From an uncultured Verrucomicrobiales bacterium (GTDB taxonomy: Bacteria; Verrucomicrobiota; Verrucomicrobiia; Verrucomicrobiales; DEV007), in contig CALAHF010000174.1 in the NCBI GenBank assembly GCA_937891465.1, positions 1-33,899 on the forward strand: 33,899 nucleotides of DNA, read 5' to 3'. Below are positions 3,110 to 22,972 of the stretch, in pieces; positions within the stretch are counted from its first letter, which is position 1, and every line of letters starts with the position of its first letter. A model generated the notes under the pieces. The model ran no database searches. It saw only the letters and a list, made by a program, of their open reading frames with translations, and was not told the DNA's origin. Made by a program: the position numbers and the translations under genes.

Positions 3110-6100
3110 ATGCACAAGTGTATTCTAGCGACGCTCGCTCTCATTTTTTCCGTTAGCAGTCATTCGGCAACTCCACAGAAAAAGGCTGCCGAAATCTTAA
3201 AAACCTCAGGGGTTACGGGCGGCCTTGTGGTTCACCTGGGCGCAGGCGACGGAGCCGTCACTGAAGCTTTACGAGGAAATCGGGAATCGATCATCGTTCA
3301 TGGATTGGAACCCGACAAACAGGCTGTGGACGCTGCCCGGGCGGCGATTTTAAAAACAGGAAATTACGGCAATGTCTCGATTGAACACTTTTCAGGAACT
3401 GCCCTGCCCTACCTTGAAGGAATTGTAAATTTGGTCGTGGTGGATAATCCAGGAGAGATCACGGACAAAGAAGTCATGCGGGTGCTTCGCCCGGGTGGAG
3501 TGGCCTTAAAACGCGATGGAAAAAATGGATGGGCGAAGACATTAAAACCTTGGCGCGATTCGATCGATGATTGGACCCACTTTTTCCACAACGCCGGTGG
3601 CAATGCTGTCGCGAAAGATTCGGAGGTCGGCCCACCTCGGCACATGAAATGGGTGGGTTCGCCGAAGTGGTCACGTCACCACGATCGCATGGCGAGCATG
3701 AGCGCATTGGTTTCAAACGACGGGCGGCTTTTCTACATCATGGATGAAGGAAGCCGAATCTCGATTCAGCTTCCTTCAAAATGGGAACTCGTTGGCCGCG
3801 ATGCTTTCAATGGAGTGATCCTTTGGCGACGCGATATCCCTGAATGGCACACTCACTTGTGGCCACTGAAATCCGGGCCGACTCAACTGGCGCGAAGACT
3901 CGTAGCAACGGGAGATCACGTCTATGCAACCCTCGGCATCACGTCACCGGTATCAATGATGGATGCCGCAACCGGCGAAACCACACGGGTTTTCGAAGGC
4001 AGCGAAGGAACCGAAGAACTGATCGTAGAAGGGAAAACCCTCTATCTCATCTCAATGGAAGGTGAGCATGAATTAGCGGATTATTTGCCCGCAAGCGGGG
4101 CTTCAGGTGACCAGGGAACTGTGGCGAAACGATGGAAGTGGAATGAATTGCCACGTAAAATCATGGCGTTCGATACCACGACCGGAAAGCAACTGTGGAA
4201 GCATATTAGCCGGGTCTCGCCACTCACCATTTCCGCTTCGGAGGGAAATTTCTTTTACCACGATGGCGACAAAGTGGTCGCACTAAACGGAAAAGACGGC
4301 TCTGAAATGTGGACCGGAGAAAAGGCCGACCGTCGCGATCAGGTGACTTTCAACTTTGGACCAAAACTCGTGGTCGTTGGAGGCAAAGTGCTTTTTGCTG
4401 GAGGCGATCGTCAGATGCATACCTATGATGCAAAAACCGGCGAAGAAATTTGGAGCGCTCCTCATGCTCGCGGCGGCTATCAGTCGCCAGAAGATTTGCT
4501 CGTGCTCAAAAACACCGTTTGGAGCGCTCCGCTCACTAGCGGAAAAGACTCAGGAACTTATACGGGCCGGAATTTACTGACTGGAGAAATCGAAAAAGAA
4601 TTCTCTCCCAATGTCGATACCTATTGGTTTCACCACCGTTGTTACATTGCGAAAGCAACGGAGAATTTCCTGATGCCCTCCCGAACTGGAATCGAGTTCG
4701 TCGATCCAGAGAAGGAGAATTGGGACATCAATCACTGGGTCCGCGGAGGCTGTCTCTACGGTGTCATGCCTGCGAACGGATTAACTTACGCTCCGCCTCA
4801 CAACTGCGCGTGTTATCCCGAAACTAAACTCTACGGATTCAACGCCCTTTCCGCAACCGGCCCTCGTCCGGACAATCCTTCAAAAGACAGGCTCGAAAAA
4901 GGACCCGCTTTTGGAAAGGTTGTAGCCGCTGTTCCAGCTGAATCCGACTGGCCAACCTTCCGGGCAGATGAACAACGGAGCGGATTCACATCTCAATCCA
5001 TTGCCGGAAAAAACCTGACCACCGAATGGGAGACGGATTTGGGAGGTCGCCTAAGTGCGATCGTTTCTGCAAATGGAAAACTCTTCGTTTCTCAAATCGA
5101 TCAACATACCGTTCACGCTCTCGACACGAACTCCGGCAAACCCTTGTGGGCGTTCACAACCGGCGGGCGGGTCGATTCACCTCCAACAATTCATAAGGGT
5201 GCGGTGATCTTCGGTTGTGCCGACGGAAACGTCTACTGCCTGCGTGCGGAAGACGGTGAGCTTGCCTGGAAATTCAAAGCCGCTCCTTCAATCGAGCGAC
5301 ACATGGCATTCGAGCAGCTGGAATCTGTCTGGCCGGTTCACGGCTCTGTTCTGGTGAAAAATGACCATGCCTATTTTGTGGCGGGACGATCCAACTTTCT
5401 CGACGGTGGCCTCCGGTTTTATGGCCTCGATGTCGACACCGGGAAAGTCGTAAGCGAAAAAATTATCAACGAAATCAATCCTGAAACAGGCAATAACATT
5501 CAGGAAAAAATTCAGACCCTGCAGATGCCGGCAGGTCTTCCCGACATCCTTAGCGCGTCGGGCGGCTACATTTACATGCGCTCGCAGAAGATGGACCTGA
5601 GCGGTGAGCGACTTGAGATCGGCCCTCATTCCGGCGACGCCGCGACCCAGGGCGCCGTTCAACGCGAAGGCGAACACCTTTTTGCACCGATGAGCTTTCT
5701 CGATGACACATGGTTCCACCGCTCTTATTGGGTTTTTGGAAAGAGTTTCGCGGGTGGTCACAACGGCTATTATCAGGCTGGGAAAAACACACCGTCCGGG
5801 CGAATTCTGGTTTTCAACGACAAAGACGTTTTTGGATTTGGTCGTAAACCCGAGTATCTGAAATGGACAACGACGCTTGAGCACCAGCTTTTCTCAGCTA
5901 GCCGAAATGCTCCCGAAGGCGCGCTGACCGTCGTTGATGATGCCGATTTACGACGTGGAAAAGCAGAGCCCCCAAAAGGGGAGTCCAAGGGAAAAGGGAA
6001 AGCGAAAGCCAAACAAGGAGCCCAGAGTGGGTCGTATGTTGAATTTGGCTCCACCAAAACTCTCAGCCCCATCGGCCATCCCCTTGGTATCGAAGCCTGG

Positions 6101-7060
6101 GTGAAGCCTGATACAAAAGAGGGCGTCATCGCAGCTCATGGTGGTCCGCACGCTGGATATGCAATCACTATGCGAAAAGGAATCCCTTGTTTCATCTATC
6201 GAAACGATCCCGAAAAGCTTCTCGGTGCAGTTGCAAAAAATCCAATCCCGCAGGGCGTATGGACTCATCTCGTGGGTCAAATCACAGCCGACAAAAAGCT
6301 TCAACTGTTTGTGAACGGAAAGCTCGCGGCGACTGGAAAAGCAGATGGATTCATTACACAAGAACCAGCCCAGGGCCTTCAGGTTGCGAGTGATATGGGC
6401 TCCGCAGTCGGCACTTACAAATCCCCCCTTCCCTTCAGCGGGTTGATTGATGAATTTTCTGTCTTTCACGGAACACTTTCTGCCGAGGAAGTCGCCGATC
6501 GATTTAAAAATCCCGGGGCGACCGCACAACCCGATAATGCCAGTATCGTTTTGTTCACTGACTTCGACAAAGGCGACGCGACTGATTTTTCCGGAAATTC
6601 AAACAGCGGATCGCTCGTCGGCGTTAAAAAATCAGCCAAAGGAAAGAATGGTGGTGCACTCGAGTTCACCGGTAAATCAGCTGCCTACGGCGGAGGAAAA
6701 CAGGGCGGATCACTCGTGAAACCTTATTGGACGCAGGACATCCCACTACTCGCACGCGCCATGGTTTTGGCTGACAAGACTTTGTTTGTCGCCGGTCCAC
6801 CGGACCTTTTCAATGAAGTCGAGACATTCAAACAACTCGCAGCCGACGATGAAACCGTTCAAAAAATCCTCGCAGAACAGGACGCCGCAATGGCCGGTGC
6901 CCAGGGCGGATTGCTTCGTGCATTTGACGCTGACACGGGAGAAACACTCTCGGAAATCAAATTGCCCGCCCTTCCGATTTGGGATGGAATGGCTGCCGCC
7001 GACGGCAAATTGCTGCTTTCAACCAAAGACGGTCGAGTTATCGCCATCTCAGGGAAGTGA
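3110..7060 (+). CDS. Giant exported mosaic: methyltransferase-like Rossmann domain, two PQQ-type beta-propellers, embedded LamG domain
   Basis: 1316 residues. Residues 1-20 look like a signal peptide (ending SHSA). Residues 25-135 resemble a class I SAM-methyltransferase fold: VHLGAGDG at 41-48 as motif I and VLRPGG at 125-130. From about 150 there is a PQQ-type propeller (WTHFFHNAGGN, then many strand-turn units such as GKQLW and GEEIW). It ends at a conserved cysteine segment (C548, C566, C568). A second propeller starts near 612 (DWPTFRADEQRSG). A Lys/Gly-rich linker (about 949-974) leads into a LamG/concanavalin-like domain (about 975-1131). Propeller sequence then resumes at about 1201 and ends in LLLSTKDGRVIAISG. 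Quinone cofactor binding is not shown; the propellers may be purely structural or substrate-binding. Large proteins of this type are common in Verrucomicrobiota and Planctomycetota, mostly without known function. Probable location is periplasm or cell surface. Confidence 0.82.
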   Translation: MHKCILATLALIFSVSSHSATPQKKAAEILKTSGVTGGLVVHLGAGDGAVTEALRGNRESIIVHGLEPDKQAVDAARAAILKTGNYGNVSIEHFSGTALPYLEGIVNLVVVDNPGEITDKEVMRVLRPGGVALKRDGKNGWAKTLKPWRDSIDDWTHFFHNAGGNAVAKDSEVGPPRHMKWVGSPKWSRHHDRMASMSALVSNDGRLFYIMDEGSRISIQLPSKWELVGRDAFNGVILWRRDIPEWHTHLWPLKSGPTQLARRLVATGDHVYATLGITSPVSMMDAATGETTRVFEGSEGTEELIVEGKTLYLISMEGEHELADYLPASGASGDQGTVAKRWKWNELPRKIMAFDTTTGKQLWKHISRVSPLTISASEGNFFYHDGDKVVALNGKDGSEMWTGEKADRRDQVTFNFGPKLVVVGGKVLFAGGDRQMHTYDAKTGEEIWSAPHARGGYQSPEDLLVLKNTVWSAPLTSGKDSGTYTGRNLLTGEIEKEFSPNVDTYWFHHRCYIAKATENFLMPSRTGIEFVDPEKENWDINHWVRGGCLYGVMPANGLTYAPPHNCACYPETKLYGFNALSATGPRPDNPSKDRLEKGPAFGKVVAAVPAESDWPTFRADEQRSGFTSQSIAGKNLTTEWETDLGGRLSAIVSANGKLFVSQIDQHTVHALDTNSGKPLWAFTTGGRVDSPPTIHKGAVIFGCADGNVYCLRAEDGELAWKFKAAPSIERHMAFEQLESVWPVHGSVLVKNDHAYFVAGRSNFLDGGLRFYGLDVDTGKVVSEKIINEINPETGNNIQEKIQTLQMPAGLPDILSASGGYIYMRSQKMDLSGERLEIGPHSGDAATQGAVQREGEHLFAPMSFLDDTWFHRSYWVFGKSFAGGHNGYYQAGKNTPSGRILVFNDKDVFGFGRKPEYLKWTTTLEHQLFSASRNAPEGALTVVDDADLRRGKAEPPKGESKGKGKAKAKQGAQSGSYVEFGSTKTLSPIGHPLGIEAWVKPDTKEGVIAAHGGPHAGYAITMRKGIPCFIYRNDPEKLLGAVAKNPIPQGVWTHLVGQITADKKLQLFVNGKLAATGKADGFITQEPAQGLQVASDMGSAVGTYKSPLPFSGLIDEFSVFHGTLSAEEVADRFKNPGATAQPDNASIVLFTDFDKGDATDFSGNSNSGSLVGVKKSAKGKNGGALEFTGKSAAYGGGKQGGSLVKPYWTQDIPLLARAMVLADKTLFVAGPPDLFNEVETFKQLAADDETVQKILAEQDAAMAGAQGGLLRAFDADTGETLSEIKLPALPIWDGMAAADGKLLLSTKDGRVIAISGK

Positions 7061-8272: not shown

Positions 8273-9766
8273 TCACTGAAGGCCGCGTAAAAGCAGTTCG
8301 GCGTTAGAGTTCGTGACGGAGATATTCTTAATGAGCGCTTCCATGGCCTCGCCGGCAGGTCGCTGGGCCATTTGCTTACGGAGTGTGGTAATGCGCTGGT
8401 ATTCATCAGGGTGGTAAAGAAGTTCATCTTTACGAGTTCCCGATTTCAACGTGTGAATCGCAGGCCAAATGCGAGATTCGGCCATTTCACGATCCAGAGT
8501 GATCTCCATATTTCCTGTTCCCTTAAATTCCTCAAAAATAATGTCATCCATCCGGCTGTCGGTCTCAATGAGACAGGTGGCCAGAATTGTGAGACTTCCG
8601 CCTTCTTCAACATTTCGTGCAGCTCCAAAGAACTTACGGGACCTCTCAAGAGCTTTTGGTGAAATACCGCCAGAACCAATCGGACCTCCGCCCCCGCCTC
8701 CCCCACGACCTCCACGGCCACGTTTGTTGCCGCCTCCGCCGCTTTGAGCGTTCGAGTTGTGGGCTCGCGCCAAACGAGTCAAACTATCCAGCAAAACAAC
8801 AACGTGCTTACCTTCTTCGACCATTCGTTTTGCCCGATCAAGCACCATATCCGATACTTGGACGTGACGCTGAGGACTCTCATCAAAAGTTGAACTGAAT
8901 ACTTCAGCATCGACAGTTTCTTTAAAATCAGTGACTTCCTCAGGACGCTCATCCAATAGGAGTACAATCAACTCGACTTCAGGATGATTTTTGTGAATCG
9001 AAATCGCAATATTCTTGAGAAGGATCGTTTTCCCGCCCCGGGGAGGAGCCACGATCAAACCACGCTGTCCTTTGCCAAGCGGTGCAATCATATCAATCGA
9101 ACGGGAAGAAGGGCTCTCAGCTCCTTCGTATTCCAAGATAATTCGCTCGTCAGGAAATAAAGCGGTGAGGCTATCGAATGGTCGCCCAGACTCCCATTCG
9201 TCTGCAGGTTTTCCCTCAATCGTTAGAATTTCTTCGACTGATAAAAATTTCTCACGATCGCGAGGCTGGCGAATATGACACCGGACTCGCTGCCCCGATT
9301 TTAGATCATATTTTCTGATATAGTCAGAAGTGATGTGAACATCATCAGCATTTGGAGAAAAACTCAGGCGAGGCCAACGAAGAAATCCAAATTTATCACC
9401 ATTGTGCTCTAGAAAACCTTCGGCTTCCAATCGGGTCCCGTGCTTTCCGTAATACTGCAGGATTTCGAACACTAGCTGATGTTTTGACCGGACTCCGGCA
9501 ACTCTCAAACCTGCTTCCTGAGCCAAAGCATGCAGTTTGGCAAGCGGCTCCTGTTGGAACTCATTGAGATCAATAAATTCAGGAACTTCCGGGGGCGGAG
9601 GAGATTCTTTCGGCTCCTTCTTCTTCGGGGCATCCGATTTTTCTTCTGATTCTACCTTAACCGGCTCAGCTTCAGTTTGTTGAACTGAATCGTCGGTCGA
9701 ATCTGAGCTATTCTCAGAGACAGGGACTTCAGGTGGTATTTGAATTTCTTTTTCCTCTGTATTCAT
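8273..9766 (-). CDS. rho: Transcription termination factor Rho with Gly/Arg-rich Q-loop insertion
   Basis: 497 residues against 419 in E. coli. Residues 1-65 are an acidic, Pro-rich, low-complexity extension. The Rho N-terminal helical domain and the cold-shock-like RNA-binding domain ([15 protein letters not shown], 116-130) follow. The RecA-like ATPase core has its P-loop APPRGGKT at 240-247, Walker [11 protein letters not shown] at 322-331 and SGTRKDELL with the likely arginine finger R445. The core is otherwise canonical ([15 protein letters not shown]). Between Walker B and FFGAARN, where E. coli has the Q-loop, residues 342-367 are an RG/poly-Gly stretch about 17 residues longer than expected. 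Rho is a hexameric RNA helicase that terminates transcription. Its start overlaps the coaE stop as ATGA, indicating translational coupling. Confidence 0.96.
8666..8743 (-). repeat. Gly/Arg-rich low-complexity insertion in Rho (Q-loop), G-rich coding strand
   Basis: Encodes Rho residues 342-367: clusters of glycine around KRGRGGR, then seven glycines. On the minus (coding) strand the DNA and mRNA contain closely spaced G-runs (GGAGG, GGGGG, GGGGG, GGAGG), a potential G-quadruplex. The normal Q-loop residues GK-V-L-TGG of E. coli appear replaced by GPIGSGG at the end of this stretch. Confidence 0.75.
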
Positions 9767-10389
9767 GAGGGTAACAAATTTTCTGCTTTGAGCGTCTCAC
9801 TCAATAAATTGGTCTGGAACTCCAACTCTGAGGAACTTCCGTCGTTCCAAATGACAACATCCGCGTTTTCAATTTTATCTGAAATGGGAAGTTGGGAGTT
9901 GAGAAGGGACTCTATGGTCGCTTGATCAAGGTTTCTGTTTTCTGAAAGTCGTTGCGATTGCGTTTTTTTTGAGGCGGCAATGACCACATCTAGATCCCTT
10001 TTTACGGGAAAATCCACTTCGTATAATAGAGGAACTTCCAAAACGAATAGTTCTGGTCGTTCGTCAACCGAAGCAGCCTGAAGCAGTGCCTTGTTTGCAG
10101 AGTTCAGAATTTGAGGGTGCAAAATTCCTTCGAGTGTTAATCTACGGGATTCTTCCTCAAAAACGATTTGTCTTAGCGCTGAACGATTGACGCCTCCGTC
10201 TGGATTTAAGACTTCGTTTCCAAACTCTTCGCTGATTGTCGCAATGATCTCCGGCTTTGTCAACAGATTGTGGGCCTCGGCATCGCAATCAAATAGCACA
10301 GTAAGCTTGACCCCAAACAGCTCTATCAGTCGTTTGACCACGGTTGATTTTCCTGTCGCGATTCCACCGGTGATTGCAATCGTCTTCAT
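9763..10389 (-). CDS. coaE: Dephospho-CoA kinase
   Basis: 208 residues, typical for the family. The P-loop GGIATGKST is at residues 8-16. The CoA-substrate motif DCDAEAH, the lid-region EVPLLYE, the RLSENR arginine motif and the terminal ADVVIWNDGS (family: AD-VI-N-GS) all match dephospho-CoA kinases. It phosphorylates the 3'-hydroxyl of dephospho-CoA with ATP, the last step of coenzyme A synthesis, in the cytoplasm. It is the first gene of the coaE-rho-rnd set; the stop overlaps the rho start (ATGA). Its own start lies just 12 nt past the base of a strong terminator stem, so its promoter must lie in or upstream of that hairpin, or the operon depends on read-through. Confidence 0.95.
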   Translation of the reverse strand: MKTIAITGGIATGKSTVVKRLIELFGVKLTVLFDCDAEAHNLLTKPEIIATISEEFGNEVLNPDGGVNRSALRQIVFEEESRRLTLEGILHPQILNSANKALLQAASVDERPELFVLEVPLLYEVDFPVKRDLDVVIAASKKTQSQRLSENRNLDQATIESLLNSQLPISDKIENADVVIWNDGSSSELEFQTNLLSETLKAENLLPS

Positions 10390-10401
10390 CGCAAATAATA
10401 A

Positions 10402-10430
10402 AAAAGGCGTGGTAGTGAACCACGCCTTTT
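10402..10430 (-). terminator. Rho-independent terminator of the pilus-like operon
   Basis: Perfect 11-bp stem: AAAAGGCGTGG (10402-10412) pairs with CCACGCCTTTT (10420-10430) around a 7-nt loop. Reading on the minus strand, after the secretin stop at 10475, the stem is followed by a T-rich tail (TTTTTTATTATTT). This is a textbook intrinsic terminator for the secretin transcript. It ends about a dozen bases before the coaE start codon. Confidence 0.9.
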
Positions 10431-10474: not shown

Positions 10475-13102
10475 TCAAGGAGCTGGAGCAGTTGCATCAA
10501 CGCCCTCAGGAACATCAGTACCAATGAAACGATTGTTGATCTTCAATCCAGCAGGATCCTGAATTTCGGCACGGACGAAGATTGTGAGGTTCCGCTTGAG
10601 GTGCAGCTCAACGTTGTTTCGAAAGAGGCGACCAAAGATAGGAAGGTCACCAAGGAAAGGAACCTTATCTTCAACGTCTTGAACATCTTCACGAATCAAT
10701 CCACCAAGAGCAACGGTCTGTTGGTCCCAAATGGTGACCTGCGTTGTTACCTTCCGAGTATTAAAAACTGGCATTTCAATCCGGTTCTCGGTGATGACAA
10801 CTTGCTGTGCCTGACCAAGAGCGTTAAATCCAGCCGATGAAATTGGGCTTCCATAGTTAATAAATCCTTCGAATTCAACAACCTCAGGAGAGAGGTTAAG
10901 ATCGATTGTGAAGTTATCAGCACCAAGCACTGGATCAACTTCGAGCGTGACCCCTGTGTTCCGTGTTTCGAACGCAGTAGGCGTCGCAGGCGTTACCGGG
11001 AAGGTTCCGGTCGAAGAACCGTCACCACCTGTAATACCAGTCGTTCCGACCTGGTTTGGAATCTCTGGTGGATCATACTCAGTTGGGTAGATGAACTCAC
11101 GAATAACTTCGATTTTCGCGCGCTGACCACTTCGAGCCATGACGGACGGAGCAGTCATCAGATCAACGCCTTTCTTCTGGCGAAGCGCACGGATCATTAC
11201 TTGGAACTGTGGATCGGTAAACACGCCTGCAATTCCGAAGATTGAAGGAGCTACGGCCGACAAATCCTGAGTGCTACCAGCAGCATCAGAAATCAATCCA
11301 TCGATAGAATCTGCACTCAGCGCATTACCACCACTACGAAGACCCGCAGTAACTGGATTGCCTGCAATCGTTGTCCCATCCGGATTACTAAATGCGAAGT
11401 CAGTAGCAGTGAGGTTTCCGGCATTTGACGGAACCCCGCCGCTACCAAAAACCTTTGGAGCCGTTCCAATATTGAATGGTCCGAGGAGCCAATCAAAACC
11501 AAGCTCTTTCCCGTCTTCCTGAGAAATCTCAATGAAGCGTGAAGTGATGAAGATTTGCTTCTCGACTCCTGAAGTCAGTGTATCCAGAAAGATCTCTGCC
11601 AATTCCATCTGATCCTGTGTAGTTCTGACAATCAACTGCGAAGTTCGCGGGTTGAACGAAGCACTACCACCAGGAGGGAATGTCACACCTGAGGCTTCCA
11701 GAACTTCGCGGGCCGTCATTCGACCAGAACCTCCACCGCCACTATTCTCAACAGGGTCAGCAAAAGGATCTGCTGCGGCACCGCCACCGCCACCGCCACC
11801 GCCACCGCCACCGCCTGCAGTCAGGAATGTCGGAGGAACTGTGTAAGTATTTGTGTAAAGCTTATCATCAGGACGAGACAAAGGAACGATCAGGACCGCG
11901 TTTGGCTCGACCTTATACTTCATCTGAGCAAGCGAAGTCGTGTAGCGAAGCGCCTCAACAAGAGGGACATTCTGGAGTCGCAATGTGATACGAGTTGCAC
12001 CAACGCCACCATCAACTCCAAATCCGCCACCACCAGCACCAGCACCAGCAGGCGCATCAAAACCGCCTCCATCAAAGCCATCGCCACCAGCCGGGTCAGC
12101 AGGAGCAGCACCGCCGCCGCCAACACCTGCATCAAGGATAAAGTTTACTCCTTTGCGAGTTGGGTCATTTTCCTCCACATCCAGCTCAACACTTCTCTGC
12201 TGGAGAAACTGAAGAGCCTCGGTGAGCGGTGTATCCACAAACTCAACACTTGGCAGAATGATCTTTTTCAACTTCTGCTCATTCAAGAGGATTCGATCAG
12301 TCTCAGTATCGGTCTTCCCTACAATTGCATCAATTGGATTCGAGCCAACAGGAACAGGCATTTCCCATCCCTCAGCAATCTTGCGCATGAACGTCGCACG
12401 GGTTTGATCCCTCGCTGTATCGTAATACTTCAGGCGTTCCTGCTCGACCTTCTCCAAGCTCTGACGCGCAGCTCTGTTATAAGGGTCCTGGGTCAACGCT
12501 TCATTGTAACGAGCCTCTGCACCGTCATAATCGCCTAAATCAAGGTGTCCCTGCGCAACCTTGAGGGCATATTCGACTTTTCTCACCTTATCCAGATGAT
12601 CTGGAGTAAGCGCTGGAGAATACCATTCTGGATCCTGAAGACGCTCAAGAAGGCGCTTTGCCTCAAGATTGTCTGGATCCATTGACGGCTGCAAAACATC
12701 TTGAAGAAGCACAGTCGCTTCGGGGTATCGAGCTTCGACTGCACGCTGTTCGGCAAGCTTCACACTCGCATTGGCATACTGCTTGGTGTAAGCAGCTTTG
12801 CGAGATTCTGTCATCTCGGCATCTGGAAGCAAATCAAGTGCTGACTTATACTGCTCAATCGCACCTTGGTAATCTTCATCAGCCATTAACTGAGAACCAC
12901 GCAGAGCAGCCTCATCAGCTTTCTTCACCCGTTCTTGCAGACGAATCACGTAACGACTGGCAACTCCGGGCACGCCGCCCTCTCCTCCAGCGGCACTGCC
13001 GCCAGCTTCGGCGTAAACAGAATTACAAACTCCAACCGACGCGAGGGAGAGCGCGCAAACAAGTGCGGTGTGAATTTGTTTGAATTTAAGGGATGTTCTC
13101 AT
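10475..13102 (-). CDS. Amuc_1098-like secretin, outer-membrane channel of a pilus-like system
   Basis: 875 residues. A signal peptide ends near VYA at 31. Residues 55-235 contain tetratricopeptide-like helices (DYQGAIEQYKSAL, GDYDGAEARYNEAL). Residues 283-325 and 370-408 are small N-domains of secretins, split by a Gly-rich stretch (327-369). A second Gly-rich linker with 12 consecutive glycines (430-441) follows. Another N-domain (about 460-505) leads into the secretin barrel (about 510-850), with the signature VPFLGDLPIFGRLFR near the C-terminus. Secretins form 12-15-mer gated pores for type IV pili, type II secretion or related systems. The order of neighbours matches Amuc_1098-1102 of Akkermansia muciniphila, where this protein is the predicted pilus outer-membrane channel. 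It is the last gene of the operon, 88 nt after the 1099-like gene. Confidence 0.92.
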   Translation of the reverse strand: MRTSLKFKQIHTALVCALSLASVGVCNSVYAEAGGSAAGGEGGVPGVASRYVIRLQERVKKADEAALRGSQLMADEDYQGAIEQYKSALDLLPDAEMTESRKAAYTKQYANASVKLAEQRAVEARYPEATVLLQDVLQPSMDPDNLEAKRLLERLQDPEWYSPALTPDHLDKVRKVEYALKVAQGHLDLGDYDGAEARYNEALTQDPYNRAARQSLEKVEQERLKYYDTARDQTRATFMRKIAEGWEMPVPVGSNPIDAIVGKTDTETDRILLNEQKLKKIILPSVEFVDTPLTEALQFLQQRSVELDVEENDPTRKGVNFILDAGVGGGGAAPADPAGGDGFDGGGFDAPAGAGAGGGGFGVDGGVGATRITLRLQNVPLVEALRYTTSLAQMKYKVEPNAVLIVPLSRPDDKLYTNTYTVPPTFLTAGGGGGGGGGGGGAAADPFADPVENSGGGGSGRMTAREVLEASGVTFPPGGSASFNPRTSQLIVRTTQDQMELAEIFLDTLTSGVEKQIFITSRFIEISQEDGKELGFDWLLGPFNIGTAPKVFGSGGVPSNAGNLTATDFAFSNPDGTTIAGNPVTAGLRSGGNALSADSIDGLISDAAGSTQDLSAVAPSIFGIAGVFTDPQFQVMIRALRQKKGVDLMTAPSVMARSGQRAKIEVIREFIYPTEYDPPEIPNQVGTTGITGGDGSSTGTFPVTPATPTAFETRNTGVTLEVDPVLGADNFTIDLNLSPEVVEFEGFINYGSPISSAGFNALGQAQQVVITENRIEMPVFNTRKVTTQVTIWDQQTVALGGLIREDVQDVEDKVPFLGDLPIFGRLFRNNVELHLKRNLTIFVRAEIQDPAGLKINNRFIGTDVPEGVDATAPAP
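11780..11815 (-). repeat. Hexanucleotide tandem repeat coding for poly-glycine in the secretin
   Basis: Five perfect copies of CCGCCA (plus strand, 11781-11810) and a sixth partial copy give twelve glycine codons (residues 430-441). The unit is six bases, so slipped-strand changes would lengthen or shorten the linker by two glycines without breaking the frame. Confidence 0.9.
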
Positions 13103-13190
13103 GCAATGGTATTCTTTTAAGCGATTGCCGTTTTCAAGAATCGTCTCATTTTGACTAAACCTTATTGAAAAGATGAAAATGGGACAAATG

Positions 13191-14156
13191 TCAACTTTTC
13201 TTCGAGATTTCGATGTCTTTTTTTTGTCCGGTGTCTGATTCTACGGATATTTTGGCTGAATCCTCCTCAATTTTGAGAAGTCGGTATTTGTTTTTCTGAT
13301 CGTTTGATAAAGTGAATGTATCACCTTCCTTAATGTTTTGAGGCTCAACAGTCCCTAAATCATAAGTCAATTCTCCAAAATAAGTGGGTATAATTTTTGA
13401 AATACTCTTCTGAATCACTTGTTTTTCTGCAGACGGCATATACGTGATTTTGAGTTCTGAAACATCCTTCTTAATTCCATTTATTTCTTTCTCGATTTCT
13501 TCATACGCATCGATACGAAATTGCTGATCACTCGAGATCTCTCCGATCCTCATGATAAAAGTTTCACGCCGCTGCCAAGCTGCGGTTGGTTCCCGGATAA
13601 TCTGAAATCGCTCCGCATCAGGTTTGGCCGCAAATTTCAGCTTGTATCCCTTTGATTTCCTTTCCTTCACATAAAGCTTCCCAGTGTAAGGAGGGTGAGC
13701 ATTGGGGTCTTTAGGGCCGGTTTTTACTTCCCACTCCTCGATATTCGAAAATCCGTCATTATCGGAGTCCTGAGAGAGCACAGCAGCGTTCAAAAACGGT
13801 AAGTTATGCTCAATCAACCATTGGTTGGAAACAGGAGGTCGTACCAACTCCGACGTTGGATTCATCATATCGATCAAATTCCCATTCACCTCGACAATCG
13901 TAATCGACTTAAAAAGAGGGAGTGGCTTAGGTGGATCCCCCTTCATTGGAAGTTCCCACTGTGCATTTGCCTTTACAATTGCGTTCGCCTCTTTGACCCG
14001 GTTCACATCGTTCTCAGCAATCGTATCATCTTTCACAATCGGATCGCGCATAAACTGGTTTGGAAACGAAAACGCTTTAAAAGCGAAAAGCCCACTCACA
14101 GCGAGAACCACTGCGGCAGCCCCGATCAATACAAATTTATCCCATGCGCTGTTCAT
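13191..14156 (-). CDS. Amuc_1099-like pilus-system protein, membrane-anchored
   Basis: 321 residues. One N-terminal membrane helix (about 8-28, LIGAAAVVLAVSGLFAF) anchors a periplasmic region. Residues 130-142, DSDNDGFSNIEEW, form a thrombospondin type 3-like calcium-binding loop, followed by a conserved-looking TGPKDPNAHPPY. The C-terminal half is beta-rich and charged. I recognise the gene from its place between the Amuc_1100-like gene and the secretin rather than from a known enzyme motif; by analogy with PilP or GspC it could link the inner-membrane complex to the secretin. That role is inferred. It begins 50 nt after the Amuc_1100-like stop, without a Shine-Dalgarno sequence. Confidence 0.8.
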   Translation of the reverse strand: MNSAWDKFVLIGAAAVVLAVSGLFAFKAFSFPNQFMRDPIVKDDTIAENDVNRVKEANAIVKANAQWELPMKGDPPKPLPLFKSITIVEVNGNLIDMMNPTSELVRPPVSNQWLIEHNLPFLNAAVLSQDSDNDGFSNIEEWEVKTGPKDPNAHPPYTGKLYVKERKSKGYKLKFAAKPDAERFQIIREPTAAWQRRETFIMRIGEISSDQQFRIDAYEEIEKEINGIKKDVSELKITYMPSAEKQVIQKSISKIIPTYFGELTYDLGTVEPQNIKEGDTFTLSNDQKNKYRLLKIEEDSAKISVESDTGQKKDIEISKKS

Positions 14157-14206
14157 AAATTAGTTTTCAAATTAGTTTCTGTATCACTCAATTCCCCTCA
14201 CCAGAC

Positions 14207-15208
14207 TTACTTGCGTCCGGAATCGTCTTTCACTTCCTTGGCTTCCTTGCTTGAAGGGTCAAGAAATCTTACCACATCGACAATCATGTAGACTTCCAAA
14301 CTCTCCTGTCCCATCAGCACTTTCGCGTCCTCATCAGCAGGCTCATAGCCCTGCAATTTCATATTTGCTATAACTTCTGACTCAGATGCCGTTGGCCACC
14401 CTGCTTCTTCAAGCTGTGAAATCATCGCAACCTCCTCTGTGTCAGGGTTTTTGTACCGCGGAACATCACTGCCAGCAACCGCAATTAATTTTGCAGGAGG
14501 ATCAGGACTGCTGTTGGTGACTTTCATCACTCTCACAATGTAGAAAAACTTCTTATCATTGGCAATTCGATTCAAAAAAGTCTGAAATGACTGGTGACTT
14601 CCTGTGAATCGGAGTCTCACGGGATACTTATGAACCAGTCCGTCTGCGTGTTTATTGCTCGATGCCCCCTCTTCTCCCGGGATCAGATCCCTGGTAAGAC
14701 TGAGAAGCGACGTTGCATTAGATTCAATAATTGCTCGAATCAGGTGATCAATTGCCCCCAACTCGAAATCAAGAGTGGGCACCACATCAGGTGCCGGAAT
14801 TTTCCCCTTGTAGGTGTCGAAGCCTAAATAAAAGTCTTCTTCGCCTACGATTAAGAAATCACTTTCTTTCGCCACCGCTTTCAATGCGTCTACCTTTGTC
14901 CGCACCAATTGCTGGAATTCAGTGTCGCGAATGGCCTCGTTCAACGGGGTTTGAAACTGATTGAGATTCTGATAGAGCGCATCCACATCAGCCTTGTAAG
15001 TCTTCAGATTCCCTTCAAGCTTCTTGGTATTTTCGGGGCTGGGAAACGGCACCCGCTTAGAGAGGCTCTCTATTTGGGTCAACTTATCGCCCCAGCTCCC
15101 CATTGCTTCATCATAGCCGCTTTTTGCCTTCAAGCAGAAAAAGCCTGCCCCACCAATAAGCAGCAGTGAAATCACTCCAAATGTAGCTAACCAAATCTTC
15201 GGTTTCAT
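14207..15208 (-). CDS. Amuc_1100-like pilus-associated protein (PilO/GspM-like fold expected)
   Basis: 333 residues (Amuc_1100 has 317). An N-terminal membrane helix (about 5-27) is followed by a coiled-coil segment (about 35-115). Landmarks that align with Amuc_1100 as I remember it are DFYLGFDTYKGKIP (125-138), LDFELGAIDHLI (146-157), the VRLRFTGSHQSFQ...FFYIVRVMKV block (197-230) and VLMGQESLEVYMIVDVVRF (297-315). Amuc_1100 is the Akkermansia protein reported to signal through host TLR2, and its structure resembles PilO/GspM-type inner-membrane pilus components. Here it lies 18 nt downstream of the PilM/PilN-like gene, which fits a PilM-PilN-PilO assembly. Residues 231-296 are a variable hydrophilic stretch where Amuc_1100 instead has a Pro/Ala-rich region. 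Host signalling should not be assumed. Confidence 0.85.
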   Translation of the reverse strand: MKPKIWLATFGVISLLLIGGAGFFCLKAKSGYDEAMGSWGDKLTQIESLSKRVPFPSPENTKKLEGNLKTYKADVDALYQNLNQFQTPLNEAIRDTEFQQLVRTKVDALKAVAKESDFLIVGEEDFYLGFDTYKGKIPAPDVVPTLDFELGAIDHLIRAIIESNATSLLSLTRDLIPGEEGASSNKHADGLVHKYPVRLRFTGSHQSFQTFLNRIANDKKFFYIVRVMKVTNSSPDPPAKLIAVAGSDVPRYKNPDTEEVAMISQLEEAGWPTASESEVIANMKLQGYEPADEDAKVLMGQESLEVYMIVDVVRFLDPSSKEAKEVKDDSGRK

Positions 15209-15226
15209 AAAAAATCGTTTTGAAAA

Positions 15227-16969
15227 TCAGTTTGTGTATTTCACCTGATACTGCTTCGGCACTGGAAGGCTCATAATCCAGCGATATGCGTATTTCGTTC
15301 CGTTTCCTGCATCCACCTGCTCAATCGCAGTCTGCGCATCTACATCCTTCAAATCAAAGAATGCAGTATCCGGATTATCAATCGCATCTTTTTTTAACAC
15401 ATCGAAATACTCGTAGACCACCTTGGCGCCTTTCGGACGATTCTCGCGCCACAGTCCCTCGATACGGAATCCGTCGATTATTTTCTCTTCACCACCGCCC
15501 GTTGGCAGTCCGGGAATTTCCGGATTAACCAAAACAACCCCTCCTGAAGTTGGCTCAAAACTGGTGATAAACATAAAGTCGCTCTGCATCATGTAGCTCA
15601 GATAATCAAAGACCTGCGTCCAATAAACCCGATGAATCACCACGTTTCGAAACGGCTCTTTCTTCAAACTGACAACCTTCAGCTCATCTTCAATCTTGTC
15701 GATTGACTTCGCATGATCATCAAGCGCATTCGCCTCTCCTTCGATTTCTGAAGCATTTTCAGCCGCGATAGTCTGTCCTTGAGTAAAGAAAAAGCCCAGC
15801 CCAGCCAGGAGCGCAGCCAGTGAAACCATCGCCATCACCAACGCCGGCTTTCGCTTCTTCAAATCCTGAACTGCCTTCACAGAATCCGGAACCAAAACAA
15901 CAGACATTGGCGTAGGACCGCTCTGACGAACAGCTGAACCAACGAGCTCGCCCAAATTGTGAGCATGAGAAGCAACGTGATCCCGATCCACTCCCGACCC
16001 TATACGGACATTCCGGAGCGCGTTAAAATAATCGATCGGCAAATTGAGTTTTTCCGCAAAGAATTCGCGAATAAATGGCAAAGCCGCGGTCGCACCATTC
16101 AACAATGCCAACTTAGGTGCACTTCCCCCTTGCTGACTCCGATAAAAATTCGTCGTTCGCATCACTTCCGAATGCAATCGGGTCAGTGAATTCCGAATCA
16201 CCTTGGAAATCCCGGCAATCACCGGATCTTCGTGGTCGGCGTATGGCCCACCCAGAGCGACAAAGCCATCGACCGCCTTGCGAACATCAGCCTCTTCGTA
16301 AGAAACGGAGAACTCTTTCGCAATCGCCTTCGAAATATCAGCTCCACCAATTTTGATGGTTCGGACAAAAACCTTCTTACCTTCAGCAAAAATCAGATTG
16401 GTCGTTCGTGCACCGATATCGATGACAACTGTCGTCTGATCTAAATCAGGATAGTTAAACCGAAACGCGTTATACAAAGCAAGCGGAGCGATCTCCACAC
16501 CACCTGAAGTAAAACCAGCGCCTTCGACTAGCTCGTCAATCTCGTTCAACTCATCCTTCTTCACAGCGGCCAACAAAACCTCGACTTCAATATCGTCTTC
16601 ATCACCGATGAGCTGATAATCCCACACAACATCATTGATATCGTATGGCACTTGCTGTTGAGCCTCGAATTTAACAATCTCCTCAACTTGCTCACCGTCA
16701 AGCTGCGGCAGAGCCACAAATCGGGTAAACACCGGGAATGATGAAGTCACATAGGGGACGGTCTGCCCCTTTGCCTTAAGCGAGCTCGAAACCTGCTTCA
16801 GAGCCATTCTGGTTTGCGCATTCCTGCGATCATCTTCAGTCGGATCCCCGACCAAATCAGAACGCTCGTATTTCTCGAGAATCAACCCACCATCAGGCGT
16901 CGGCTTGAAAACCGCCCCTGACACATGTTGTGACCCAAGATTCACAGAATAAATTCTATCGTCTGCCAT
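15227..16969 (-). CDS. Amuc_1101-like PilM-type actin-fold protein fused to a PilN-like membrane region
   Basis: 580 residues. Residues 1-350 match PilM, an FtsA/actin-like ATP-binding protein: the PilM hallmark KFEAQQQVPYDINDVVWDYQ lies at 100-119, the phosphate-2-like loop VVIDIGARTTNL at 181-192, and IKIGGADISKAIA follows. A single membrane helix at about 375-397 (LVMAMVSLAALLAGLGFFF) is followed by a 180-residue periplasmic domain beginning with a coiled coil. This second half resembles PilN, which in classical type IV pili is a separate protein that binds PilM. The protein would thus span the inner membrane, with the actin-like part in the cytoplasm. It lies 83 nt after the 1102-like gene and 18 nt before the Amuc_1100-like gene. 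Confidence 0.88.
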   Translation of the reverse strand: MADDRIYSVNLGSQHVSGAVFKPTPDGGLILEKYERSDLVGDPTEDDRRNAQTRMALKQVSSSLKAKGQTVPYVTSSFPVFTRFVALPQLDGEQVEEIVKFEAQQQVPYDINDVVWDYQLIGDEDDIEVEVLLAAVKKDELNEIDELVEGAGFTSGGVEIAPLALYNAFRFNYPDLDQTTVVIDIGARTTNLIFAEGKKVFVRTIKIGGADISKAIAKEFSVSYEEADVRKAVDGFVALGGPYADHEDPVIAGISKVIRNSLTRLHSEVMRTTNFYRSQQGGSAPKLALLNGATAALPFIREFFAEKLNLPIDYFNALRNVRIGSGVDRDHVASHAHNLGELVGSAVRQSGPTPMSVVLVPDSVKAVQDLKKRKPALVMAMVSLAALLAGLGFFFTQGQTIAAENASEIEGEANALDDHAKSIDKIEDELKVVSLKKEPFRNVVIHRVYWTQVFDYLSYMMQSDFMFITSFEPTSGGVVLVNPEIPGLPTGGGEEKIIDGFRIEGLWRENRPKGAKVVYEYFDVLKKDAIDNPDTAFFDLKDVDAQTAIEQVDAGNGTKYAYRWIMSLPVPKQYQVKYTN

Positions 16970-17052
16970 AATGAAAAATTAAAATCTTTCAGAAATACCA
17001 CTCACCTCTTTCGTTTCTTTCCAGAGGTTCCCAGTTCCCTATCGAAGCATTA

Positions 17053-17658
17053 TTACTTCTTCTTCTCGTCAGCGTAACGGTCGATCCAAAGTATCCCAAA
17101 GGGAGTCTCTGAACGTGAAAGAACCCCAGCGGTAGGGTTTTGCCCCTCCCAAAACTTTTTACTGGTCAGCTCAACGCCGCCACCTACGAGCACTCCATTA
17201 TAATAAACTTCAACACCGACACCTTTAATCACGTTTGGATTAAAGGACCGGAAATCTCCCGTCAGCTTTCCCAAAGTTGATGGGGAAACATAAACGGCAG
17301 AAAAAGTTTCTTCGCCAGCCTCAACATTAAGGTGGGTAATATCAGTTGTCATCACAACAACTTTTCCTTCCTCATCCATCATGCCGATGTAATAACGGAA
17401 CAGCAGTTCCGGAACCACCGCATCACGTGGCGCAACGTCTTTCGCTTCAAAAGTCACCTCAACCTCGAGCCAATCACGTGGCTTGAACTTTTTGTCCTTC
17501 ACTCCACCAGCTTGAAAAATCGGAGTCGGCTGAGCCTGAATCTCGATTTTTTTGATATCAATCCCTGAGCCGGCTTTCACCTGCACTTGAGATTGACCAT
17601 GGGCGATAACTGACGCGAAAATCGTCAGGCTAAAGATTTTAAAAAAGTTTTTCATCAT
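17053..17658 (-). CDS. Amuc_1102-like exported pilus-system protein
   Basis: 201 residues with an N-terminal signal or anchor (about 1-22, ending AHGQ). The mature part is beta-strand rich (WLEVEVTFEAKD, GVGVEVYYNGVLVGGG) and is probably an immunoglobulin-like sandwich; I see no catalytic motif. It is identified mainly by length, fold character and its position as the first gene of the cluster that matches Amuc_1102-1098. Two adjacent ATG codons (17658 and 17655) make the exact start uncertain by one residue. It is likely the promoter-proximal gene of the operon. Confidence 0.75.
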   Translation of the reverse strand: MMKNFFKIFSLTIFASVIAHGQSQVQVKAGSGIDIKKIEIQAQPTPIFQAGGVKDKKFKPRDWLEVEVTFEAKDVAPRDAVVPELLFRYYIGMMDEEGKVVVMTTDITHLNVEAGEETFSAVYVSPSTLGKLTGDFRSFNPNVIKGVGVEVYYNGVLVGGGVELTSKKFWEGQNPTAGVLSRSETPFGILWIDRYADEKKK

Positions 17659-17744: not shown

Positions 17745-18713
17745 TTATCCGACTCGACCTCGGAAATATTCAATAGTTTCGGCGATTCCTTCATTAAAGT
17801 TAACCTTGGGCTCCCAATCTAACAAGCTCTTCGCCAACGAGATATCCGGCTGACGAACCTTGGGATCATCCTCGGGAAGATCGCGAAATTCGATCGGCGA
17901 ACTGGTCTCAATCATCTCGGTAATTTTTTCAGCGAACTGCAAAATCGTCATTTCAACGGGATTGCCGATATTCACCGGCCCTGTCGAATCACTTTGTGAC
18001 AATCGGTAAATGCCTTCTACCAAGTCCTTTACGAAACAGAAACTTCGCGTTTGGCTTCCATCACCAAAAACCGTGATCGGCGTTCCATTTAATGCCTGTC
18101 CGATAAATGCAGGCACAACCCGACCGTCCATCAACCGCATCCGGGGACCGTAGGTATTAAAAATCCGCACGATCTTCGTATCGACACCGTGCGTTCGGTG
18201 ATACGCCATCGTGATCGCTTCCGCAAAACGCTTTGCCTCGTCGTAAACGCCACGAGGTCCAATTGGATTCACGTTTCCCCAGTAATCTTCTGTTTGCGGA
18301 TGAATCAGCGGATCTCCATAAACTTCCGAAGTTGAAGCGATTAAAAACGTCGCGCCCTTCGCTTTAGCCAAACCGAGCGCATTGTGCGTTCCCAAAGAAC
18401 CCACTTTCAGGGTTTGAATCGGCAGCTCAAGGTAATCAATCGGACTTGCCGGGCTGGCCAAATGAAATACAAAGTCAACATCCCCCTCGATCTCGATGTA
18501 CTTCGAAACATCATGCTCAATAACCGAGTGGTCCGGATTGTCCGCCAAATGCGCGATATTATCCAACGAACCGGTGATCAAATTATCCACAGCAATCACC
18601 CGATGCCCCTTTGACAACAGCAAGTCTGTCAAATGAGAACCCAAAAACCCTGCCCCGCCGGTGACGACAGAAACAGGTTTTGATGAAGAGGATAGATTTG
18701 CAGAATCGGCCAT
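17745..18713 (-). CDS. UDP-glucuronate decarboxylase-type NAD-dependent sugar-nucleotide enzyme (UDP-xylose synthase family)
   Basis: 322 residues from the chosen ATG. Extended short-chain dehydrogenase features are the NAD-binding [10 protein letters not shown] (GGAGFLG at 19-25), STSEVYGDP (127-135) and the YDEAK catalytic Tyr157/Lys161 pair. The segments [17 protein letters not shown] and [10 protein letters not shown] are typical of UDP-glucuronate decarboxylases, which make UDP-xylose from UDP-glucuronate for surface polysaccharides. The frame is open to an earlier ATG at 18773. I prefer 18713 because the fold begins shortly after it and the extra 20 residues look non-coding. It lies 86 nt upstream of the pilus-like operon and is divergent from the Gfo/Idh/MocA gene. 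A dTDP-glucose or UDP-glucose epimerase role is less likely. Confidence 0.85.
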
Positions 18714-18780
18714 GAATTGAATCGCCGACACTTCAACACAGGAAAAATTCCGGTCAACCGTTTTCACACCCAAATCGAAT

Positions 18781-20565: not shown

Positions 20566-20770
20566 AAAAAATCGAATCCCGCATTCCTTCGCTTCCGTCA
20601 GCGAAAGTGCCTCGGCGTAAACCCCTCACTTTCAGCATCAACCTTGCTGAATGAGCCCCGCTTTTATTTTAGTGCTAAATCGCCCCAAATATGGCACACT
20701 ATTTCGTATTCTTGAAAATAAAACGGCTTCACCATTCATTCGTTTGAGTCTGTGGAAACCACCGTTGAAC

Positions 20771-22972
20771 ATGCTCGCTTCTAAATTTCCTGCCTTAATT
20801 TTCACACTCGCCGTCCTGCTCACGGGAAGCGTGAAGGTCAACGCGCAGCTGGATCTTAATCGCGATGGGTTTCTCGACCTCTGGCAAATCGAGCATGACG
20901 CGTTCGATCTGCAATTTGATATTGATGACGACGGGGACGAATCCATCAATGGCTTCGAGTCCCTTTCGGGAACGAATCCAGACGATGACTCCAGCTTTCT
21001 CGAACCGACGAAACTGACTGCGGGATCGACCGCAGGCATGTGGACTTTGAACTGGGATACCGTCCCGGGAATTGGCTATCAAGTTCAAGTCTCAGCCAGC
21101 CCTGTAGGTCCGTGGGAATCCGTGGGAACACCAATCACGGGAGACGGAAATTCGATCGCTCACGTTTTCGACGGTTCTGGAATCACCGCCCTACAGGGTG
21201 CATCCGGTTTCGCCCGCATACGGGTCGTTCAAATCGACGCCGACGACGACGGAGTATCCGCTTATGAAGAATTACTGCTTGGCCTGAGCGATTCCAGCGG
21301 CATCAGCAACACCGATCCCGGCGCAATAAGCGATCTCGAATTTGCGCGTCGTCACATTTTGCAAACCGGGGAATTTGGCCAAGGCGGCCTCAGTTTAACG
21401 CCTACTCAGATTGATTCGGCACGATTTCTAACCCAAGCAACTTTCGGGGCGAGTTGGGAGCTAATTAATGAGGTGACTGATCTGGGAATCGAAACCTGGA
21501 TCGACCAACAAATGGACAGCGAGCCGGAATTTCACCGACCGCTCGTCGAGCAATACACCGCCCCGCTCAACGAAGAATCCGAAGGCTGGGGCGTTACCCG
21601 CTCCCGCGCATGGTGGCACCGGACGATGACGGCTGACGACGTTTTGCGACAGCGCGTTGCCTTTGCGCTGAGCGAAATTTTTGTAATTTCAGATCGCTCC
21701 GATGACATTTTTGATTCCCCCGTCGGGACGGCTGCCTACTACGATCTGCTTCTCGAACACGCTTTTGGAAATTACGAAGAACTGCTCGCTGACATCACAT
21801 TTTCTCCCATCATGGGCTTCTACCTCAGTCATCTGGGAAATCGCAAAACGGACGAGTCCCAAAACATTTTCCCCGATGAAAACTACGCTCGCGAAATCAT
21901 GCAGCTTTTCTCCATTGGCCTCTACGAACTCAACGCAGACGGCTCGCGGAAACAAGCCGGCGGCGAAGACATCCCGACGTATACCAATGTCGATATCACC
22001 GAGATGGCCAAAATTTTCACCGGTCTCAATTACGGAAATCAGGACGATTGGGTTTACGAAGATTTCGAGGAGGAACCGGAAATTTTCTTCGAACTTGACT
22101 GGGTTCTCGACGCCCCGATGGACATGTATGACTTTTGGCACGAGCCGGGACCAAAAACGATTTTCGGAACCGAAGTCATCGACGAGGACGATCCGTCGGA
22201 CAACATTTATGCCGCCATCGGGATTCTAGCAGATCACGACAACGTCGGCCCCTACATCGGCCATAAATTGATTCAGCGTCTTATAAAATCAAATCCCTCC
22301 CCAGCCTACATCGCCCGGATTTCCGCCGTGTGGGACGATGACGGCGAAGGCACCCGTGGCAATCTCGGCGCTGTGGTGAAAGCAATTTTAATGGACCCAG
22401 AAGCGCGAAATCGCAACGCCGCCCTCGCAGATTCCGAATCAGGAAAACTCCGAGAACCACTGCTGCGTTTCATGAATGTGCTGCGTGCTTTCAATGCAAC
22501 TCCGAGCCGCTATGGTTGGAATTTCGATGGCGAATACGTGAATGAGATGCTCCAACAATACCCACTCCGCTCACCGAGTGTTTTCAATTTCTACTCTCCC
22601 GATTTTCAACCGAACGGGCCTCTGGCGGACAACAATCTGGTCGGCCCGGAATTTCAAATCATGAACTCGCAGACCGCAATCTCTATTCATAACCTGATCT
22701 ACGAAGCGGTCATGTTTGACGACCTCTACAACGAGCGCGGTCGCCAAGTCGTCTTCGATTATTCCGACGAAATTGCCCTCGCTGATGATCCCGTCACCCT
22801 AATAGATCGGCTCAGTCTCCTGCTCGGTCAGGGCGAAATTTCTGATGAAACCTACCGCACAATTGTCGCCGAACTCACCCAGCTGATTCAAGACGAAGAA
22901 GAACCCGGAATCATCGTTCGCTTTGCCATCACCGCCCTCACGACCTCCCCCGATTTCAATATTTTGCGATGA
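20771..22972 (+). CDS. Exported DUF1800 domain protein
   Basis: 733 residues from the preferred ATG. The frame is open to 20651, but the upstream 40 residues are unlike a leader, while MLASKFPALIFTLAVLLTG at 1-19 is a good signal peptide ending VNAQ. Residues 28-63 hold two acidic calcium-loop motifs (DLNRDGFLDLWQ, DIDDDGDESINGF) of the TSP3/dockerin type, and a third (DADDDGVSAYEE) lies near 156. Between them is a beta-sandwich-like region. From about 205 comes the DUF1800 domain (ARFLTQATFG, then NYAREIMQLFSIGL near 371). DUF1800 proteins are almost always followed by a DUF1501 gene, as here, with an ATGA overlap. Their biochemical role is unknown, and surface or periplasmic polymer handling is an inference. 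Confidence 0.88.
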   Translation: MLASKFPALIFTLAVLLTGSVKVNAQLDLNRDGFLDLWQIEHDAFDLQFDIDDDGDESINGFESLSGTNPDDDSSFLEPTKLTAGSTAGMWTLNWDTVPGIGYQVQVSASPVGPWESVGTPITGDGNSIAHVFDGSGITALQGASGFARIRVVQIDADDDGVSAYEELLLGLSDSSGISNTDPGAISDLEFARRHILQTGEFGQGGLSLTPTQIDSARFLTQATFGASWELINEVTDLGIETWIDQQMDSEPEFHRPLVEQYTAPLNEESEGWGVTRSRAWWHRTMTADDVLRQRVAFALSEIFVISDRSDDIFDSPVGTAAYYDLLLEHAFGNYEELLADITFSPIMGFYLSHLGNRKTDESQNIFPDENYAREIMQLFSIGLYELNADGSRKQAGGEDIPTYTNVDITEMAKIFTGLNYGNQDDWVYEDFEEEPEIFFELDWVLDAPMDMYDFWHEPGPKTIFGTEVIDEDDPSDNIYAAIGILADHDNVGPYIGHKLIQRLIKSNPSPAYIARISAVWDDDGEGTRGNLGAVVKAILMDPEARNRNAALADSESGKLREPLLRFMNVLRAFNATPSRYGWNFDGEYVNEMLQQYPLRSPSVFNFYSPDFQPNGPLADNNLVGPEFQIMNSQTAISIHNLIYEAVMFDDLYNERGRQVVFDYSDEIALADDPVTLIDRLSLLLGQGEISDETYRTIVAELTQLIQDEEEPGIIVRFAITALTTSPDFNILR

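Follow-up and report, generated by a model that had tools for sequence, protein, structure and literature searches.

The five-gene locus and its flanking regions

The DNA analysed here, hereafter the window, is a stretch of 33,899 nucleotides from an uncultured Verrucomicrobiales bacterium. Positions 10475-17658 are occupied by five minus-strand ORFs, each matching one NCBIfam family, in the order Amuc_1102, Amuc_1101, Amuc_1100, Amuc_1099, and Amuc_1098. The first gene (17053..17658) encodes an exported protein of the Amuc_1102 (MUL2A) family with an Ig-like fold (NF042424, 143 bits for a cut-off of 55). It is followed by a gene of the Amuc_1101 (MUL2B) family (15227..16969), whose product combines a PilM domain with a PilN-like transmembrane (TM) segment, a coiled coil, and a beta-alpha-beta domain. 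The next two genes encode TM-anchored proteins: a periplasmic protein of the Amuc_1100 family (14207..15208; NF038287, 194 bits, cut-off 180; TM at residue 8), which would occupy the PilO position, and an Amuc_1099 family member (13191..14156; NF042425, 174 bits, cut-off 50) with an EF-hand-type loop (residues 130-141) and a PilP-like C-terminal beta domain. The last gene (10475..13102) encodes a PilQ-type secretin of the Amuc_1098 family (NF042912, 972 bits, cut-off 750), characterized by N-terminal TPRs, Gly-rich linkers, and a C-terminal secretin domain. Curated cut-offs were exceeded by four of the five ORFs, the exception being Amuc_1101, which scored slightly below (NF045709, 618 versus 650 bits, E 1.9e-185). 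Solved Akkermansia structures were also matched by sequence, with 6lad (E 2e-13) and 6kny for Amuc_1100, and 7dsz for Amuc_1102 (phmmer, E 2e-17). These profile searches recovered the gene order of the Akkermansia cluster, as recognised in an earlier note on this DNA, and family scores and synteny together rule out a chance resemblance.

The same five families, in the same order and flanked by CoaE and Rho, constitute the Amuc_1098-1102 region of Akkermansia muciniphila (the MUL2 locus plus PilQ). The window organism belongs to another family of the same order, and its sequences are divergent, Amuc_1101 being about 30% identical to its homologue in an Akkermansia-like genome. Downstream of the locus are the minus-strand genes for CoaE, a dephospho-CoA kinase (9763..10389; PF01121), found in 40 of the 49 loci with enough flank, and Rho (8273..9766; Pfam Rho domains), which has the same position in relatives. 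The secretin, CoaE, and Rho are the flanks given for the Akkermansia MUL2 region in the Fig. 2 legend of PMC13174399, and all three are present here. Upstream, and as a difference from Akkermansia, the window carries a minus-strand NAD-dependent sugar epimerase (17745..18773; Pfam), a neighbour conserved in 45 of 69 loci with enough flank.

The single terminator that the earlier note had placed after the last gene looks real: a minus-strand hairpin of 12 pairs with a T tail (10402..10430) lies between the secretin stop and CoaE. The promoter suggested before the first gene fared less well, as a search for sigma-70-like sequences near 17658 on the minus strand yielded no convincing candidate, the sole match overlapping the start codon. 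The gap separating the first gene from the epimerase is only 86 bases, which would allow co-transcription.

Other genes in the window encode DUF1800 and DUF1501 proteins (side by side at 20651-24405), a planctomycete-type cytochrome/PSD protein, a 3-keto-disaccharide hydrolase, a BD-FAE esterase, and a PQQ protein. The product of 27840-31223 is large and exported; it carries two LamG domains together with planctomycete cytochrome c and DUF1592/1588/1585/1595/1587 domains. From such exported proteins the note had pictured a free-living polymer degrader, for which this set of neighbours is a thin basis.

Proposed assignment of the products to parts of a type IV pilus

Amuc_1101 corresponds in its PilM domain to the actin-like cytoplasmic protein PilM of type IVa pili (T4aP). 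Besides its Pfam match (PF11104 PilM_2, E 6e-28), its predicted structure (pLDDT 90.6) matched Thermus PilM (2ych) over residues 2-352, the range covered by the comparison, with a Z score of 35.8 that applies to the PilM part. No other PilM in the genome scored over the cut-off. Past this part, the chain runs through a TM segment at 377 into a long helix, after which comes a beta-alpha-beta domain. At the PilM-PilN junction (residues 357-361) is a PilN-like (I/V/L)xLxP motif, in which L359 is found in 52/52 and P361 in 50/52 family members; the Pfam PilN model (PF05137) matched two of the 52. We infer that Amuc_1101 is a PilM fused to a PilN-like part, which would be the equivalent of PilN.

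In Amuc_1099, the predicted fold points to PilP. With VIA-align, the best neighbour of the model (pLDDT 90.8) was Myxococcus PilP (3jc8 chain Pa, an architectural model; Z 9.6, rmsd 2.2 A over 72 residues), the next row having a Z of 5.0, and the similarity corresponds to the PilP homology-region beta domain. This resemblance is seen with VIA-align only, Foldseek by itself giving no significant match for the same model. The calcium-loop protein described in the earlier note has a genuine EF-hand-type loop (DxDxDG...E), which is near-invariant among 56 family members: D130 and D134 occur in 56/56, and D132 and E141 in 55/56. Judging from this motif, the loop may bind calcium.

Gene order, topology, and the fold resemblance of Amuc_1100 to type IV pilus (T4P) and type II secretion system (T2SS) proteins, reported in published work cited in PMC13119276, suggest that this protein stands in the PilO position. 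The Pfam PilO model found no match in the Amuc_1100 family, for which families were listed for 32 members, and the Pfam PilO, PilN, and PilP models were likewise without match in the Amuc_1100 and Amuc_1099 families. Amuc_1100 has been reported at the Akkermansia surface (PMC5332112), a location that an inner-membrane PilO does not predict and that counts against the PilO-position reading.

The secretin domain of Amuc_1098 (PF00263, E 1e-30) spans residues 639-848, and PilQ chains were among its PDB matches. A Pfam scan at E values up to 1 found no AMIN domain in this protein, TPRs being present in its place. The AMIN domain is common but not universal in PilQ. In the earlier note, the TPRs and Gly-rich linkers, together with the missing pilin and motor genes, had suggested a machine that need not be a classical pilus, yet nothing about them is unusual for this secretin family: TPRs were described in Akkermansia PilQ (Ottman 2016), and the Gly-rich stretches vary widely among relatives. 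The Akkermansia PilQ homologue is a very abundant outer membrane protein (PMC4960237). Finally, Amuc_1102 is an Ig-like accessory protein.

The locus is probably the form that the standard pilMNOPQ operon takes in Verrucomicrobiota. In type IV pili, this operon encodes the channel and scaffold that span the envelope. With the PilMNOPQ system of Myxococcus, Thermus, and Pseudomonas it shares the PilM fold, the PilP-like fold, the secretin domain, and a single operon apart from the motor genes. It differs in that PilM is fused to a PilN-like part, the PilP counterpart is larger and carries the EF-hand-type loop, the secretin has TPRs without a detected AMIN domain, PilO is undetectable by sequence, and the Ig-like Amuc_1102 is additional. 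The architecture is also analogous to that of GspC/D/L/M in type II secretion, with which it has the secretin superfamily in common, and the locus could be read as supplying the secretin and the inner-membrane scaffold for a type II-like machine that forms a short pseudopilus for enzyme export and no pilus. Amuc_1098 does score on the GspD model, but its 127 bits are far below the cut-off of 351, and T2SS membership of the locus was rejected on these scores; moreover, the PilM (not GspL) and PilP assignments are of the T4P type.

Motor, pilin, and secretin genes elsewhere in the genome

As the earlier note stated, the window contains no pilin or motor gene, and no prepilin motif was found in any of its frames. 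This fact is uninformative because the same genome (5.97 Mb in 229 contigs, 95.6% complete) carries these genes on other contigs. A prepilin, PilC, and two PilB-type ATPases are encoded on contig C36, two tandem PilT genes (ca. 420 bits each, cut-off 319) on C97, four prepilin-like ORFs with a 730-residue PilB-like protein on C226, and a prepilin peptidase on C204. The genome thus has PilB, PilC, PilT, prepilins, and prepilin peptidase, as in T4aP. Well-studied T4aP bacteria usually have pilMNOPQ in one place and the motor genes in another, so that the layout seen in the window is normal.

These data bear on the view, put forward in the earlier note, that the locus encodes a motor-free, envelope-spanning machine for adhesion or uptake that builds no pilus. 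The gene content of the window and the link between MUL genes and mucin transport in Akkermansia, in the summary given by PMC13174399, are in its favour. With complete sets of motor and prepilin genes on other contigs, with the only clear PilM of the genome located in the locus, and with PilB-type ATPases accompanying the locus throughout the phylum (see below), this view is highly improbable. The genome has nine T2SSE-type ATPases. The type II-like machine draws some support from the PilB-type ATPases, which the PilB and GspE models do not separate cleanly: they score almost equally as GspE and fall below both cut-offs. Against it, a separate T2SS-like pseudopilin cluster with GspF, GspG, GspK, and a PilN-domain protein lies on contig C84, the genome encodes further secretins besides that of the locus, and PilT is present.

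Several observations concern these additional secretins. A second Amuc_1098-family secretin (851 bits, cut-off 750) lies outside the locus on the minus strand of contig C175 (G000:C175:7673-10084; L072:5641-8151), and copies similar to it occur in most genomes of the same order. Its assignment, with a Mul1B-like neighbour, to a MUL1 locus was considered and found weak, given that the Mul1B match is below cut-off, that the neighbouring protein has an F5/8 domain, and that Mul1B is far from the second secretin in the Akkermansia-like genome G021. In family f2, the gene after the second secretin encodes an unannotated, homologous single-TM protein of ca. 480-600 aa (L077:3645-5204, L083:8521-10065, L076:3678-5324, and others), in which no Pfam family scored over the cut-off; in family f3, its neighbour is a sulfatase (L080:3555-5120). 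Two adjoining Amuc_1098-type matches were observed at the locus end in L093, L115, L186, L187, L190, L204, and L213, those of L190 being weaker and maybe fragments. Such pairs suggest tandem duplication as the source of the second secretin. On C97, a secretin domain is split into two matches, one with an in-frame TGA (G000:C97:87223-87734; L015, L016), possibly reflecting a pseudogene or an assembly error.

Distribution in Verrucomicrobiota

A scan of genome contigs identified at least 567 confirmed relatives, from which 80 loci were kept. Based on record titles, all belong to Verrucomicrobiota, and many of the names refer to lakes, ponds, soils, or reactors, from which habitats were inferred. 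Gene order is kept in these relatives, with all five genes present in 47 of the 50 loci having enough flank, and motor genes were found near the locus in only two of the 80. Locus L217, from one MAG, has PilC and PilT within 9 kb (4857-6281 and 14348), and L179 has a PilT-like gene directly upstream (L179:6975-8231).

In a sample of 289 Verrucomicrobiota genomes, Amuc_1100 was matched in 224, PilT over its cut-off in 276, and a PilB-type ATPase in 287. Every Amuc_1100-bearing genome had a full-length PilB-type ATPase (224/224), and 219 of the 224 had PilT. Eight genomes were devoid of a full-length PilB-type match, namely six from family f5 (best E 1e-75 to 3e-87) and two tiny ones from family f8 (none). 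The same eight gave no match to Amuc_1100, and none to the Amuc_1098 secretin except a marginal one in G057 (E 3e-4). Co-occurrence with Amuc_1100 had Fisher p values of 5e-6 for PilB and 0.002 for PilT, figures that reflect few independent losses, the co-loss with PilB involving about two families. The absence of MUL2 was reported for Methylacidiphilaceae (PMC13174399).

Five genomes (G116, G208, G205, G281, and G136) keep the locus and PilB without a recognisable PilT. Such lineages count in favour of a type II-like machine, but with PilT in nearly all locus-bearing genomes and the evidence set out above, that reading is improbable.

The distribution of the locus is not tied to mammalian hosts, in line with the suggestion of the earlier note that the ancestral role of Amuc_1100-type proteins may be unrelated to them. 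The locus occurs across the phylum in bacteria that are mostly free-living. Its conservation in free-living bacteria is real, and it was already published in 2026, together with MUL2 synteny in aquatic Akkermansiaceae and other Verrucomicrobiales (PMC13174399).

Proposed function and significance

As the Verrucomicrobiota counterpart of pilMNOPQ, the locus probably specifies two parts of the cell's type IVa-like pilus, its alignment subcomplex and its outer-membrane secretin. In such a complex, the parts of which may well assemble physically, Amuc_1101 would provide a cytoplasmic ring of actin-fold PilM joined to a membrane part resembling PilN. Amuc_1100, in the PilO position, and Amuc_1099, as PilP, would have their anchors in the inner membrane and reach across the periplasm. 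The TPR-bearing secretin Amuc_1098 would form the gated pore, and the Ig-like Amuc_1102 would be exported and serve as an accessory protein or adhesin. With PilB, PilC, PilT, prepilins, and the peptidase supplied from other loci, a filament could be assembled and retracted through the Amuc_1098 channel. By analogy with the literature on Akkermansia relatives, its use would most likely be attachment to particles or glycans and polysaccharide uptake; a type IV-like pilus that attaches to fucose-rich glycans was proposed, and fucoidan uptake observed (PMC13174399).

The near-invariant EF-hand-type loop in the PilP counterpart raises the possibility that periplasmic Ca2+ controls the coupling of the inner-membrane scaffold to the TPR-bearing secretin. 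A calcium-responsive variant of T4aP, in which lineages devoid of PilT would use the locus for non-retractile or secretion-like work, is conceivable though doubtful.

Three elements of the present analysis are modestly new: Amuc_1099 is assigned to PilP and has a near-invariant EF-hand-type loop, Amuc_1101 is read as a PilM-PilN fusion that retains a PilN-like motif, and the locus co-occurs with motor genes on a genome-wide scale. Both amuc_1099 and amuc_1100 were called uncharacterized in 2026 (PMC13174399). For Amuc_1099, the predicted PilP fold and the calcium-type loop now offer a concrete handle.

Amuc_1100 is under study as a probiotic effector that acts on TLR2. Its apparent PilO position within an ordinary pilus scaffold, across bacteria from soil, lakes, and the sea, argues for a structural ancestral job, and makes its reported surface location worth re-testing.
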